Assembly: GCF_013694095.1 (NCBI RefSeq)
Contig: NZ_JACEFB010000004.1
Location: 1-64,000 of the forward strand
Direction: 5' to 3'
Origin: Thermogemmata fonticola
GTDB lineage: Bacteria > Planctomycetota > Planctomycetia > Gemmatales > Gemmataceae
DNA: 64,000 bases
Below, in pieces: positions 7,936 through 34,577 of the stretch (the first letter of the stretch is position 1; each line of letters begins with the position of its first letter). The translations under genes were made by a program, and so were the position numbers. The notes beneath the pieces were generated by a model that worked only from the letters and a program-made list of their open reading frames with translations, searched no databases and had not been told where the DNA came from.

Positions 7936-9540
7936 ATGGCCACCTGGTTTCAGACCACCGCGATCGACTATCCCAACAGCCGGCCCCACATCGGTACCGC
8001 GTTTGAAAAATTGGGGGCGGATGTCCAAGCCCGCTATCGCCGCATGGAAGGCTTCGAGGTGTTCTTCCTCATGGGCAATGACGAGAACACGGTCAAAGTC
8101 TCCAAGCAAGCGGCGCAGATGGGGCTGGACCCGCAGAGCTATTGCGATGAAATGGCCCGGCAGTTCCGCGCCGTCTGGGATGCCCTGGATATCAGCTACG
8201 ATATCTTCATCCAAACCAGCAGTGAGCGCCATAAACAATGCTGCCGCAAATTCATCCAAAAAGTTTATGACAACGGCTACATCTACAAGGGGGACTACGA
8301 AGGCTGGTATTGTTCCGAATGTGAAGAGTTCAAAACCCAGAAGCAGTATGACGAACATCAGGGGATGTGCCCGACGCACAAGATCGCCCTGATTCGGCGG
8401 AGCGAGCCGTGCTACTATTTCCGCCTCTCAGCCTTCCAGGAGCGCCTGCTGGAGCACTATCAGAAGCATCCCGAATTCATTCAACCGGAAAGCCGGCGCA
8501 ACGAGATCATCAGCCTGATCCAGACGGAGGGGTTGCGCGATGTGAACATCTCCCGGCGTGGGGAAAGCTGGGGGATCCGCATGCCCTTCGACCCGGAGTT
8601 TACCATCTACGTCTGGTTCGACGCGCTGCTGACGTACATCACGGGCATCGGTTACGGGGACGACGAGGCCACCTTCCGCAAGTACTGGCCGGCGAATGTG
8701 CACTTCATCGGCAAGGACATCACCCGCTTCCACTGCGCGCTGTGGCCGGCGATGCTCTGGGCGGCGGGCGAAGAGGCCCCCCGACAAGTCTTTGCCCACG
8801 GGTTTGTCTACATCAAAAATGAAGAATCCGGCATTGTGGAGAAAATCAGCAAATCTTTGGGGAATGTCATTGAGCCGATGGAGGTGATCTCCAAGTTCAA
8901 TCGTGAGGCGTTCCGTTATTATTTTCTGCGGGAATGTCCGTATCCGTCCGATGGGGAGTTTTCCTGGTCTCGTTTTGCGGAGATTTATAATTCCGAGTTG
9001 GCGAACAATCTGGGGAACCTGCTGAGCCGCTGCCTGACGTTGATCTGGCGCAACTACGCGGGAGCGCTGCCGGGGTTGGTCGGTCAGGCGCCGGCGGCGG
9101 TGGTGGCGGCGGGATCAGCGGCGGAGTTCATCGCTCAGGTGCGGCAGGGGGTGGAAAGCTACCACTATCACCAGGCATTGCAAGCGACCTTGCAGCATCT
9201 GCTCACGCCGACGAATCAATATCTGGAAGCGCAGGCGCCGTGGAAGCTGGTCAAGACGGACCCCGCGGCGGCGGCCCAGGTGCTGGCCCGTGCCGTGGAG
9301 TCCCTGCGGGTGGCGGCGATTGTGCTCAAGCCGTTCCTCCCCCGCACGGCGGCGGCGATCTACGAGAGCTTCAATTTCCAGCTTCCCTGGGACCAGGTGC
9401 GCTATGCCGATGCGGCGGAACCGGAAGTGCTCCGGGAGGACCGGCGGGCCGCCGCCCCCCTGGTCGACGGCAAGCCCAAACCGCTGTTCCCCCGCATCGA
9501 GTTGGACAGTCCGCCTCAAAGTCCCAAGACTTCGCGGTAG
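7936..9540 (+). CDS. metG: Methionine--tRNA ligase
   Basis: Class I methionyl-tRNA synthetase, which charges tRNA-Met with methionine for translation. The 534-residue protein has a HIGH-type signature (NSRPHIGTAFEK, about residue 15), a single zinc knuckle (CSECEEF then CPTHK, about residues 120-145), the DALLTYITG region, and a KMSKS variant KISKSLGN near residue 300. The helical anticodon-binding domain follows. The C-terminal tRNA-binding (EMAP-like) domain found in long forms is absent, so this is a short form. Its 3' end overlaps the convergent selenoprotein gene by 25 bases. Confidence 0.96.
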   Translation: MATWFQTTAIDYPNSRPHIGTAFEKLGADVQARYRRMEGFEVFFLMGNDENTVKVSKQAAQMGLDPQSYCDEMARQFRAVWDALDISYDIFIQTSSERHKQCCRKFIQKVYDNGYIYKGDYEGWYCSECEEFKTQKQYDEHQGMCPTHKIALIRRSEPCYYFRLSAFQERLLEHYQKHPEFIQPESRRNEIISLIQTEGLRDVNISRRGESWGIRMPFDPEFTIYVWFDALLTYITGIGYGDDEATFRKYWPANVHFIGKDITRFHCALWPAMLWAAGEEAPRQVFAHGFVYIKNEESGIVEKISKSLGNVIEPMEVISKFNREAFRYYFLRECPYPSDGEFSWSRFAEIYNSELANNLGNLLSRCLTLIWRNYAGALPGLVGQAPAAVVAAGSAAEFIAQVRQGVESYHYHQALQATLQHLLTPTNQYLEAQAPWKLVKTDPAAAAQVLARAVESLRVAAIVLKPFLPRTAAAIYESFNFQLPWDQVRYADAAEPEVLREDRRAAAPLVDGKPKPLFPRIELDSPPQSPKTSR

Positions 9541-9893
9541 GCTGCCTCCTGGAAGCCGACGATCAGAGTCGTCCCCACGCGGGCGGTGGGAGCGCGGAGA
9601 TTGCCGCTAGGGCCGAGCAAACGCCGGAGCAATTCCTCCTCCGCGGGTTTCTCCTGCCGCAGGTCCCACTGCTCCACCTTCTGCCCCCGTGTGACAATCA
9701 GCCGGCTTATCCCAGGGAGCAATCCCAACGCCTCCTGCGGACCGTAGCGGACTTTGCTGGCATTGACGCTTTCCCGCACCGAAACCTGCGCGCGCTCCAG
9801 GAACTCCTGGGCCTTCTGGCAGGTCATTCACCCTTTGCGTTCGTAGAGCCAATCGATGGCTGGCGGTGCTGCCCCGGGGTGACGACGAGTCAT
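9516..9893 (-). CDS. ArsC-family selenoprotein (thioredoxin-like fold, UGA = Sec)
   Basis: A conventional reading gives only a 103-residue frame starting MTCQKAQEFL. Upstream, the same frame continues through one TGA (9828-9830) to an ATG at 9893 preceded by a strong GAGGAGAGGAGG site. The joined product is 125 residues and reads IDWLYERKG-U-MTCQKAQEFL, giving a UxxC redox motif at the place where relatives known as ArsC family (seleno)proteins carry Cys or Sec. The C-terminal LLGPSGNLRAPTARVG contains the conserved cis-Pro-like segment of this fold. The role is probably thiol/selenol redox, and the substrate is unknown. No ribosome site of comparable quality precedes the internal ATG at 9827. 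Confidence 0.85.
9794..9812 (-). promoter_or_regulatory. Candidate bacterial SECIS hairpin
   Basis: On the minus strand, CCAGG-AGTT-CCTGG forms a 5-bp stem, extendable by two pairs across a bulged A. The loop starts 23 bases after the UGA and has G as its second base. Bacterial SECIS elements are known to sit immediately 3' of the UGA with such spacing and a G at the start of the loop, so SelB recruitment here is plausible. Confidence 0.6.
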
Positions 9894-10120
9894 GGCGGTG
9901 TTCCCTCCTCTCCTCAGATTTGTCAAAATGGTGCTCGCAACGCGTCTGGGATGCTGCGCCGTCCCTCTTCAAAGCCAAGCGTTGTGTGACATCGAGCGGA
10001 ACAACCGAGTTGTTTTTCCCTCCTCCGAAGAAATATCGGTTGTTTCACCTCCCGGGGATGACCTGGGCATGATCCAGCAGTCCAGCAGCAGCCCAACCGG
10101 ATCCGCCACGCCGTCCGGTC

Positions 10121-11023
10121 TCACGTCTCGAGGCCGCGGAGGACCAACTGGAACTGTTCCGCATCGCGGAAGGTGCCGGTATCAGGATCATAGGCGCGGC
10201 GGAGGACGTGAAGCCCAGGGCCATCCAGGCGGTATTCGAGATAGCCGGCCCGTCCCCGTTGGGTGGCGCTGCCGGCTCCGATGGTCGGGCAGGGGAGGTC
10301 TGCGCCGGCATCCAGGTAGTACCAGCGATGGCGGTGGCCGTGGAGCCAAAGGCTGATGCCGCAGGACTCAATCCAACGGCGGGCGTCGGCGGCGTCGCGC
10401 AGGCGGCGGTGCCAGCCTTCGGGACGGCGTTGTTCCGTCAGCAGGGGGTAATGGCAGACGGCGATCCGCGGGCCAGGGTCCAGCTTCTGGCAGAGTTTTT
10501 GGAGGTCCTGCCACTGGGAAGCCCCCACACTGCCGCTGGCATCCCAGAAGCCGACATGGGGGCGGGCCGCGTGCAGGGCGATCAGCCAGACCGGCCCTAT
10601 GCGGCAGGCAAAGGGATAGGGGCGCTGGGACAGTCGGAGACCGCATTGCCAGGGGGCAAAGAGGCGTTCAAAGGCACCGGATCGTGCTGCCGCTGCCACG
10701 TAGTAGTCGTGATTCCCCGGTACGGCGACACCGGGGCAGGGCGCATTCTCGGCCAGTCCCAACAGGCGAGCGGCTTCTTCCAGTTCCGCCGGAAAACCGA
10801 GGAGGGATGCATCCCCGCTGAAGATGACGGCGTCGGGCTGCCGCTGGAGGATTTCCGTGTGCAACAGCCGGGTCAGGCGCCCCGCTTGAGCCAGGCGCGC
10901 TCCCCGGCCCAAAAGATGGATGTTGATCCAGCCCATCAGCCGCTTGTTGCACCACTCCCGCCAGCTCTTGCTCCGCGGCGCCGCCGTCACGTGAATATCG
11001 CTGAAGTGCAGCAATCGCACCAT
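10121..11023 (-). CDS. Metallophosphoesterase
   Basis: A calcineurin-like phosphoesterase of 300 residues. All five metal-site motifs are present in order: HFSDIHV (residue 6), FSGDASLLG (about 70), GNHDYY (about 105), CHYPLL (about 195) and LHGHRHRWY (about 230). Such enzymes hydrolyse phosphodiesters or phosphomonoesters with a dinuclear metal centre. The substrate cannot be inferred. No signal peptide is seen, so it is probably cytoplasmic. It stands alone, on the strand opposite the SDR gene, with 262 bases between the two starts. Confidence 0.92.
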   Translation of the reverse strand: MVRLLHFSDIHVTAAPRSKSWREWCNKRLMGWINIHLLGRGARLAQAGRLTRLLHTEILQRQPDAVIFSGDASLLGFPAELEEAARLLGLAENAPCPGVAVPGNHDYYVAAAARSGAFERLFAPWQCGLRLSQRPYPFACRIGPVWLIALHAARPHVGFWDASGSVGASQWQDLQKLCQKLDPGPRIAVCHYPLLTEQRRPEGWHRRLRDAADARRWIESCGISLWLHGHRHRWYYLDAGADLPCPTIGAGSATQRGRAGYLEYRLDGPGLHVLRRAYDPDTGTFRDAEQFQLVLRGLET

Positions 11024-32484: not shown

Positions 32485-32916
32485 TTAGCGCCGAGGCAAT
32501 AACCACACCGCCAAGAGGACGCCGCACCCCAACGCCAGCAGACCGGCGAGAACGCTGACGACCACATTCAGCACTGCCAGCGGCCAGCTTCCCTGCCGAA
32601 TCAATTGCAGCGTTTCCCACTCGAAGGTGGAAAAGGTGGTATAGCCTCCGCACAGGCCGGTCCCCAAAAACAGGTACCATCCCCGCCACTCCGGTCCCAG
32701 CCGCTCCAAAAGCCAGACAGCCAGAAAGCCCAGGAGCAGGGAACCGGTCAGATTGACCCAGATCGTGCCCCAGGGCAGCCCGCCGGGCCACTGCTGCGCC
32801 TCCACCCATCGGCCGAGCCAATAGCGCAGGTTCCCTCCAATCGCACTGCCGAGGCCCACCAGGACGATCGGTTGCAGCCACAGTCCCCAGATGCCACTGG
32901 TATTGTCCACAGTCAT
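32485..32916 (-). CDS. crcB: Fluoride efflux channel CrcB/Fluc
   Basis: A 143-residue protein with four transmembrane segments. It carries GSAIGGNLRYWLGRW and GTIWVNLTGSLLLGFL with the conserved Asn, then GLCGGYTTFSTFEWE, the pore signature of Fluc channels, which expel F- from the cytoplasm as dimers. It lies 136 bases downstream of a DUF190 gene and is preceded by a fluoride riboswitch at 34186-34278, which together leave little doubt about the role. GGGGG precedes the ATG. Confidence 0.95.
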   Translation of the reverse strand: MTVDNTSGIWGLWLQPIVLVGLGSAIGGNLRYWLGRWVEAQQWPGGLPWGTIWVNLTGSLLLGFLAVWLLERLGPEWRGWYLFLGTGLCGGYTTFSTFEWETLQLIRQGSWPLAVLNVVVSVLAGLLALGCGVLLAVWLLPRR

Positions 32917-33052: not shown

Positions 33053-33859
33053 CTACGCCTCCACCTTCCGCCACATCTTCACCCCTTCGATGGTGACCAA
33101 CCCCTCCGGCACCGCCTCGTCCAGAAACGGCAGGAGGCGTTCGATCTGCTCGCGGCTGTCCACGACTTCCACGAGGACCGGCAAGTCGGTGAGGTAATCG
33201 GCGGAGCGCGGACTATGGACCCGCCGGTGCGTGCCGTAGCCCAACGGGGCGCGCAGGACCACCAGGGAGTGCAAGCCCAACTGCTGGGCCTGATGCAGGA
33301 TCGCCTGATACAGCGGCTGGCCGCGCCACTCATCGGAATCGTCCATGAAAATGCGCAGCAGATAGCCGTCCACAAAGGTACGCATCAGGGGAAACTCCTC
33401 GGCGGCAGGCAAGCAGGCGGACGGGGGAACCCGGTCCGGAACGGCCAGGTGGGTGCGGATGGCTTGCATCTGCTCCTGGCGGCGGCGAAACACCAGCACG
33501 TGGGCGCGTTCGAGCATCAGGGTGCCCCGCCGAACGACCGCGGCGGCGTCGGACAAAAAAGCGCCGATGATCGCTGGAGCATCCAGAAACTCGGCCACGA
33601 GTAGGCGGCGGCGGACCAGACTCCACCGGCTCGACCCGACGAACTGCCCCGCGCTATCCAGCCCTCCTTCCCCTTCCAGGACCGTCGCCCCCATCAGACC
33701 GCGGGCCAGCGCCCGGCGCAGCAACTCCTCCACCGTCCGGCGCCGCCAACTGTAACGGTCCGTCGAACGCAGCACCACGCGCAGCAGGGTCTGCTCCCCT
33801 TCGAGCTTCATCCGCTGCCCATCCTCGGCGGGTACGGCTTGGGCTGGTAATTTTTTCAT
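33053..33859 (-). CDS. DUF190 domain protein, fluoride operon partner
   Basis: A 268-residue soluble protein with two DUF190 (PII-like) units: residues 15-110 (LEGEQTLLRVVLRSTDRYSW, LERAHVLVFRR) and residues 150-268 (VDGYLLRIFMDDSDEWRGQP, LGLHSLVVLRAPLGYGTHRR, LPVLVEVVDSREQIERLL). DUF190 genes commonly neighbour crcB, and their exact role is not known; a regulatory or sensory role is inferred. The ATG at 33859 was chosen because the domain starts shortly after; the frame continues upstream only through repeat sequence (33871-33953). Confidence 0.9.
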   Translation of the reverse strand: MKKLPAQAVPAEDGQRMKLEGEQTLLRVVLRSTDRYSWRRRTVEELLRRALARGLMGATVLEGEGGLDSAGQFVGSSRWSLVRRRLLVAEFLDAPAIIGAFLSDAAAVVRRGTLMLERAHVLVFRRRQEQMQAIRTHLAVPDRVPPSACLPAAEEFPLMRTFVDGYLLRIFMDDSDEWRGQPLYQAILHQAQQLGLHSLVVLRAPLGYGTHRRVHSPRSADYLTDLPVLVEVVDSREQIERLLPFLDEAVPEGLVTIEGVKMWRKVEA

Positions 33860-33870
33860 TGTATCGCCAT

Positions 33871-34083
33871 CCTGTTCCAGCATCTCGCCCCCTGTTCCAG
33901 CATCTCGCCCCCCTGTTCCAGCATCTCGCCCCCCTGTTCCAGCATCTCGCCCCCTATTCCTCCCGCCTCCCCCGCTTGCCCTGGCTGTTACTCGCTTTTT
34001 TCCCCTCACCAGGGAACCACGCCGTTGCCCAGAGAACACCGCAGGGAACCACGCCGTTGCCCAGGGAACACAGCCGTTGCTCA
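33871..34083. repeat. Two short tandem repeats in the leader of the fluoride operon
   Basis: CCTGTTCCAGCATCTCGCCC occurs four times at 33871, 33891, 33912 and 33933 (20-21 bases apart). Further on, GGGAACCACGCCGTTGCCCA occurs at about 34013 and again at about 34043, with a degenerate third part. Both lie between the riboswitch terminator and the DUF190 start, so they would be in the 5' untranslated RNA. Confidence 0.85.
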
Positions 34084-34154
34084 GCGAACAAACCCACCTC
34101 CAGAAACAAATCCACCCCGCCGGGAAGCCCCAGCGGGGTGTCGCACATACCCAC

Positions 34155-34188
34155 AAAAAAACCCCTGCCGGGAGATTCTCCCCGCAGG
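34155..34188 (-). terminator. Intrinsic terminator of the fluoride riboswitch
   Basis: On the minus strand a hairpin CCTGC-G-GGGAG-AAT-CTCCC-G-GCAGG is followed by GG and seven T. Its 5' arm overlaps the last bases of the aptamer (GATGACTCCT), so the aptamer and the terminator compete for the same bases. Confidence 0.88.
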
Positions 34189-34278
34189 AGTCATCAGCCA
34201 CGGCTCGGCCAGGAGAAGGACGGCATTCGCGTTCTGGAGTCGGCGATCGCCGCGGCGGTTCCGGTGAACTCCATCACC
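34186..34278 (-). promoter_or_regulatory. Fluoride riboswitch (crcB motif)
   Basis: On the minus strand the aptamer begins GGTGATGGAGTTCACC (34278 down to 34263), followed by GGAACCGCC, and ends GCTGATGACTCCT (34198 to 34186). These are the conserved parts of the fluoride riboswitch: a GG-GATGG stem-loop, AACCGCC and GCTGATGA. A variable arm separates the two parts. A terminator follows at once, and DUF190 and crcB lie downstream. Fluoride binding is expected to hold the aptamer and prevent termination. Confidence 0.9.
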
Positions 34279-34577
34279 GTCAGGTTGTCGCCCGTATTGT
34301 ACGCCGTGATGTTCCGGACTTCCAGAGGGGAAGGCTCGCCGATGCGCTGGGCCGTTGGGCCTGGGTCTTCCTGTCGCATGGCAAGGTGCCAGGGTTGAGT
34401 TGAGGAACCAGCGGAACAAGATCAGACGGGAGACCCAAGTAGGCTACGAGAACCGCAGAACGAAACGAGACGAGAGAAAAGGCGGAAGGGAAGGGATCGA
34501 CTTTGTCGATACGAAGGGTGGGACTCTGAGGAAGATGTGGGATTCTGGGGCGTATTCGTCCGGTGGGGAAGGAAGGG

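Follow-up and report, generated by a model that had tools for sequence, protein, structure and literature searches.

Does the in-frame UGA at positions 9830-9828 on the minus strand of the stretch of DNA analysed here (64,000 nucleotides from Thermogemmata fonticola, hereafter the window) end a coding sequence, or does it encode selenocysteine (Sec) within a longer gene? Sequence comparison indicates that this UGA is almost certainly a Sec codon in a gene of the NCBIfam NF041106 family located at 9893-9516 (-), and we infer that it would be decoded as such inside the cell. Gene finders remove the catalytic residue of the NF041106 product, which makes such genes easy to mis-annotate, and the finding corrects the annotation.

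Results

The short open reading frame of 103 residues at 9516..9827 (-) has as its first codon the ATG right behind TGA 9830-9828. When this TGA (9828..9830, -) is taken as a residue, the frame extends without interruption from ATG 9893 to TGA 9518-9516, giving a gene at 9516..9893 (-) of 126 codons including the stop, whose 125-residue product carries Sec22 and C25. The homologues finish near the final UGA stop (9516..9518, -). ATG 9893, read directly on the minus strand, is preceded by GAGGAGAGGAGGGAACACCGCC-ATG, and the purine-rich ribosome-binding site GAGGAGAGGAGGGAA lies upstream of it at 9897..9920 (-; limits approximate). The joined product contains IDWLYERKG-U-MTCQ. A preliminary description of this DNA had reported a 103-residue frame starting directly behind a TGA, an open frame upstream to an ATG with a strong ribosome-binding site, and a UxxC motif in the joined product, and each of these is present in the reading frames and the translation.

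The same description had placed the product in an ArsC-like (seleno)protein family, which a full-model profile match bears out. The 125-residue product scores 137.9 bits (1.7e-40) against NF041106 "ArsC family (seleno)protein", over the curated cut-off of 85, and the alignment covers profile positions 1-107 of 107. The UGA falls on the active site of the UxxC motif in this match, with Sec or Cys first in UxxC/CxxC. The host genome holds a single NF041106 member, for which the profile search itself flags one in-frame TGA, and all 30 aligned relatives (30/30) match the model. The ArsC-like UxxC selenoprotein is an already catalogued kind, to which the window gene adds a member: an arsenate reductase-like protein with UxxC and accession NF041106 is listed in the tables of PMC13188914, an entry of the same name stands among the prokaryotic selenoproteins of PMC9312934, and an ArsC-like selenoprotein, whose subfamily may differ from NF041106, was counted already in 2006 (PMC1794560).

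The AlphaFold2 model of the product has a thioredoxin-type fold (pLDDT 91.9) in which residue 22 lies immediately ahead of the first helix (23-34). At this site of thioredoxin-fold enzymes, UxxC forms a selenol-thiol redox pair. Searches by profile and by fold place Spx and ArsC-related proteins nearest among solved structures, with glutaredoxins next; the Foldseek TM-scores are moderate, at about 0.5. Judging from fold and motif, the product is probably a glutaredoxin- or thioredoxin-like selenol/thiol oxidoreductase with a Sec-Cys pair. The Pfam glutaredoxin family has no match in the host genome at E 0.001, while 13 of 14 control genomes do match; this absence is compatible with the NF041106 protein filling such a role.

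A true selenoprotein of this fold might instead be a redox-sensing regulator like Spx/MgsR, which would bind RNA polymerase alpha rather than act as an enzyme. Among solved structures, most of the nearest in profile and in fold are CxxC-bearing Spx proteins, and the product does match the Spx/MgsR model TIGR01617 weakly, but its 27.3 bits lie below the curated cut-off of 75.05, and ArsC and glutaredoxin-like models score in the same order. Spx has been characterised in Firmicutes, which we also count against this reading. Taken together, we regard a regulatory protein of the Spx type as unlikely.

A second alternative, an arsenate reductase using Sec as its nucleophile, would be decidedly unlikely on the sequence evidence. 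Glutaredoxin-linked ArsC has a single catalytic Cys, unlike the NF041106 homologues, nearly all of which conserve both UxxC positions. The Pfam ArsC model (PF03960) is matched at 24.5 bits against a gathering score of 24, a borderline match that speaks for such an enzyme, as does the name arsenate reductase-like given to the family in the lists (PMC13188914, PMC9312934). However, none of the arsenate reductase equivalog models matched the product in the profile search, and the immediate neighbours include no ars genes. These neighbours are metG, encoding methionyl-tRNA synthetase (7936..9540, +), a convergent gene that shares its final 25 bases with the end of the selenoprotein gene and which we take as a neighbour and not as part of the system, and a metallophosphoesterase gene (10121..11023, -), which lies upstream on the same strand at a distance of 227 bases.

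A metallophosphoesterase-like gene adjoins the selenoprotein gene in 7 of 64 loci; the other recurring neighbours, named by eye from their sequences, are a ThiF/MoeB-like gene (11 loci) and a ketoacyl-synthase-like gene (9 loci), and the neighbourhoods of the 64 loci hold no common partner gene. The largest neighbour clusters (52 and 47 loci) were rejected as antisense or out-of-frame shadows of the selenoprotein gene itself. With so few true recurring neighbours, gene context does not reveal the substrate.

A search of 99 planctomycete genomes, the host included, gave a match in 67, and the codon at the UGA site was readable in 64. It is TGA in 44 and TGC or TGT in 20, with no other codon at this site. 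Invariant positions in the 30-sequence alignment are W15, Y17, R19, Sec/Cys 22, C25, G94, P95, G97, L99, A101, P102, G107 and G113. Three of them (W15, Y17 and R19) are located N-terminal of the UGA, and the 103-residue frame is therefore not the whole protein. Alignment with Cys-containing homologues, which the preliminary description had proposed as a check, returned the 20 TGC/TGT forms with the IDWLYxRK-type sequence ahead of the site retained; the domain starts upstream in all homologues, and they neither begin at a Met behind the UGA nor lack sequence resembling IDWLYERKG. That the UGA is a true stop, with the protein starting at ATG 9827, is thus highly improbable. The frame from ATG 9827 is indeed open and has an ATG start, but it misses both the first strand of the fold and its catalytic residue, and ATG 9893, not ATG 9827, is the start codon with the strong Shine-Dalgarno site. 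The Met directly after the site is likewise not conserved among relatives, in which this residue is mostly T but also V, N, K, R, S, I, A or M, and their domain begins upstream even in the 20 that read Cys across the site.

The TGA form also occurs in a same-genus relative, with 63% identity and an otherwise intact sequence, and a contig scan found three close relatives, all of them Gemmata or Gemmataceae MAGs. One TGA-bearing homologue, L083 (G041:C44), has UTTV for UTTC, with Val replacing the second (resolving) Cys, possibly through an assembly error.

Behind the UGA lies a SECIS-like hairpin (9794..9812, -) with a GC-(bulge)-CCAGG stem and an AGUU loop set 22 nt beyond the UGA. The preliminary description had noted a hairpin with a G in the loop at this distance, and the comparison supports it as a feature conserved in the Sec forms. 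Across these forms, the family hairpin spans bases 18 to 36 (U of UGA = 0), with up to 8 pairs and the loop GUU. The 44 Sec forms make 313 of 352 possible pairs, compared with 219.5 +/- 4.9 when synonymous codons are reshuffled (2000 runs, maximum 236), whereas the 20 Cys forms make 74 of 160, against 66.6 +/- 3.5 expected; the sequences in both groups are related, and the counts thus measure an excess rather than a strict probability. Of the 44 Sec forms, 43 have the loop G and 39 use CTT as the Leu codon on the 3' side of the hairpin; CTT stands there in 2 of the 20 Cys forms. By this comparison, the hairpin bears the mark of an RNA signal within the gene, retained in the Sec forms alone, as expected of a bacterial SECIS.

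The window copy has CTG instead of CTT, which breaks one pair of the family register; 5 of 8 pairs remain in that register. A shifted register with a one-base bulge gives 5 + 2 pairs and the AGUU loop. In this form the hairpin fits the bSECIS model, with a loop of 4 nt, an upper stem of 5 bp and 2 pairs below the bulge, -11.2 kcal/mol, G second in the loop and U next, and a spacing of 22 nt; the published limits are a loop of 3-9 nt, an upper stem of 4-16 bp, a G in the first two loop positions, a spacing of 16-37 nt and an MFE of at most -7.5 (PMC13188914). Taken alone, the window hairpin folds no better than shuffled sequence (z -0.25), so the argument for a SECIS rests on the comparison.

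The preliminary description had also implied that the organism has selA, selB, selC and selD, and a search of the genome (4.81 Mb in 61 contigs, 97% complete) found all four. SelA (532.6 bits), SelB (396.3 bits) and SelD (291.4 bits) each score over the curated cut-off, as does tRNA-Sec (74.9 bits), which is 95 bases long with anticodon UCA (tca in ARAGORN). The host is therefore equipped to use selenium in protein. Planctomycete Sec machinery has been described before and is complete in Gemmata obscuriglobus (PMC4807772). Loss of a Cys codon, by nonsense mutation (a pseudogene) or through a sequencing error from TGC/TGT to TGA, would take a single base but is hardly credible for a TGA that recurs in 44 genomes, a same-genus relative included, that is accompanied by a hairpin which the Cys forms lack and that stands in a genome with full Sec machinery; for pseudogenes and sequencing errors in general, the conservation pattern of the TGA rules them out.

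Sec and Cys forms are interspersed among the homologues. Placing Sec and Cys on a maximum-likelihood tree of these 64 proteins takes 12 changes, and well-supported branches force at least 6 of them, so Sec and Cys have been exchanged repeatedly; the switching is seen across loci L017-L046 and L051-L085. Among genomes at least 90% complete, 37 carry the Sec form and 35 of these have SelB, whereas 16 carry the Cys form and 9 of these have it (Fisher p 0.0018, kinship of the genomes not corrected for). Several hosts of the Cys form retain SelB, and the switch is thus not simply a matter of machinery loss. The two Sec-form genomes of this completeness without SelB over the cut-off are both fragmented drafts, and one of them (G066) has a tRNA-Sec of 72.9 bits. 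Four TGA-bearing genomes (G031, G057, G003 and G035) have neither SelB over the cut-off nor a tRNA-Sec above ~60 bits; most of these are incomplete drafts, with G031 listed as 92% complete. A tRNA-Sec was counted only above ~60 bits, since genomes with the Cys form only also give scores of 45-49 bits.

Two further features were seen in passing. Formylmethanofuran dehydrogenase subunit B looks like a second selenoprotein of the host genome: its SL-U-HGPT motif holds an in-frame TGA (L093:1185-1187, contig C2 about 507684-507686) with a hairpin behind it, and with the TGA read as Cys, it scores 498 bits against TIGR03129 (cut-off 327.8). A Sec-containing fmdB has been described for another planctomycete (PMC4807772). 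Within the window, a fluoride riboswitch (RF01734, 46.9 bits) lies at 34178-34287 (-), and the minus-strand frames after it, 33053-34201 (C-terminal part) and 32485-32916, resemble by eye DUF190 and CrcB fluoride channel proteins.

Discussion

The features described above suggest a model in which SelB and Sec-tRNA-Sec, directed by the hairpin behind the UGA, would insert selenocysteine at UGA 9830-9828, and the second UGA would terminate a 125-residue protein of the ArsC/Spx fold. Sec22 and Cys25 would then make up the UxxC redox pair where the first helix of the thioredoxin-type fold begins. The selenolate would most probably attack an oxidised substrate, Cys25 would resolve the intermediate as an Se-S bond, and a cellular thiol reductant would in turn reduce this bond.

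The set of 64 genomes, in which Sec and Cys switch often and the hairpin follows Sec, offers a useful small system for the study of SECIS origin and decay. A bolder view, which we consider quite unlikely, is that the family forms, in Gemmataceae-type planctomycetes, a natural series of Sec/Cys swaps: an Spx-like redox switch with a selenocysteine sensor would have been retuned repeatedly along with SECIS gain and loss.

The window gene and its hairpin have several known counterparts. Like the bacterial SECIS of the E. coli formate dehydrogenase type, the hairpin follows soon after the UGA (16-37 nt) and has a G in a small apical loop; it differs in a stem of just 7-8 pairs and in the family consensus at the loop, GGGUUCC. 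Glutaredoxin-linked arsenate reductase ArsC (PF03960) shares the fold and the Pfam family with the product, but a lone Cys there stands against a dithiol-type UxxC here, and the window locus has no ars context. Spx and MgsR (PDB 3l78, 1z3e, 6ghb) share the fold, a CxxC redox pair at the same place and a C-terminal LRxP region, but identity in the Foldseek matches is about 22-24%, Spx has Cys in place of Sec, and the window product scores far below the curated Spx/MgsR cut-off. With NF041106 ArsC_rel_Se_1, the likeness extends to a full-length match over the cut-off, the UxxC site and the exchange of Sec and Cys among members, and with nothing material to set it apart, the window gene is a member of this family.
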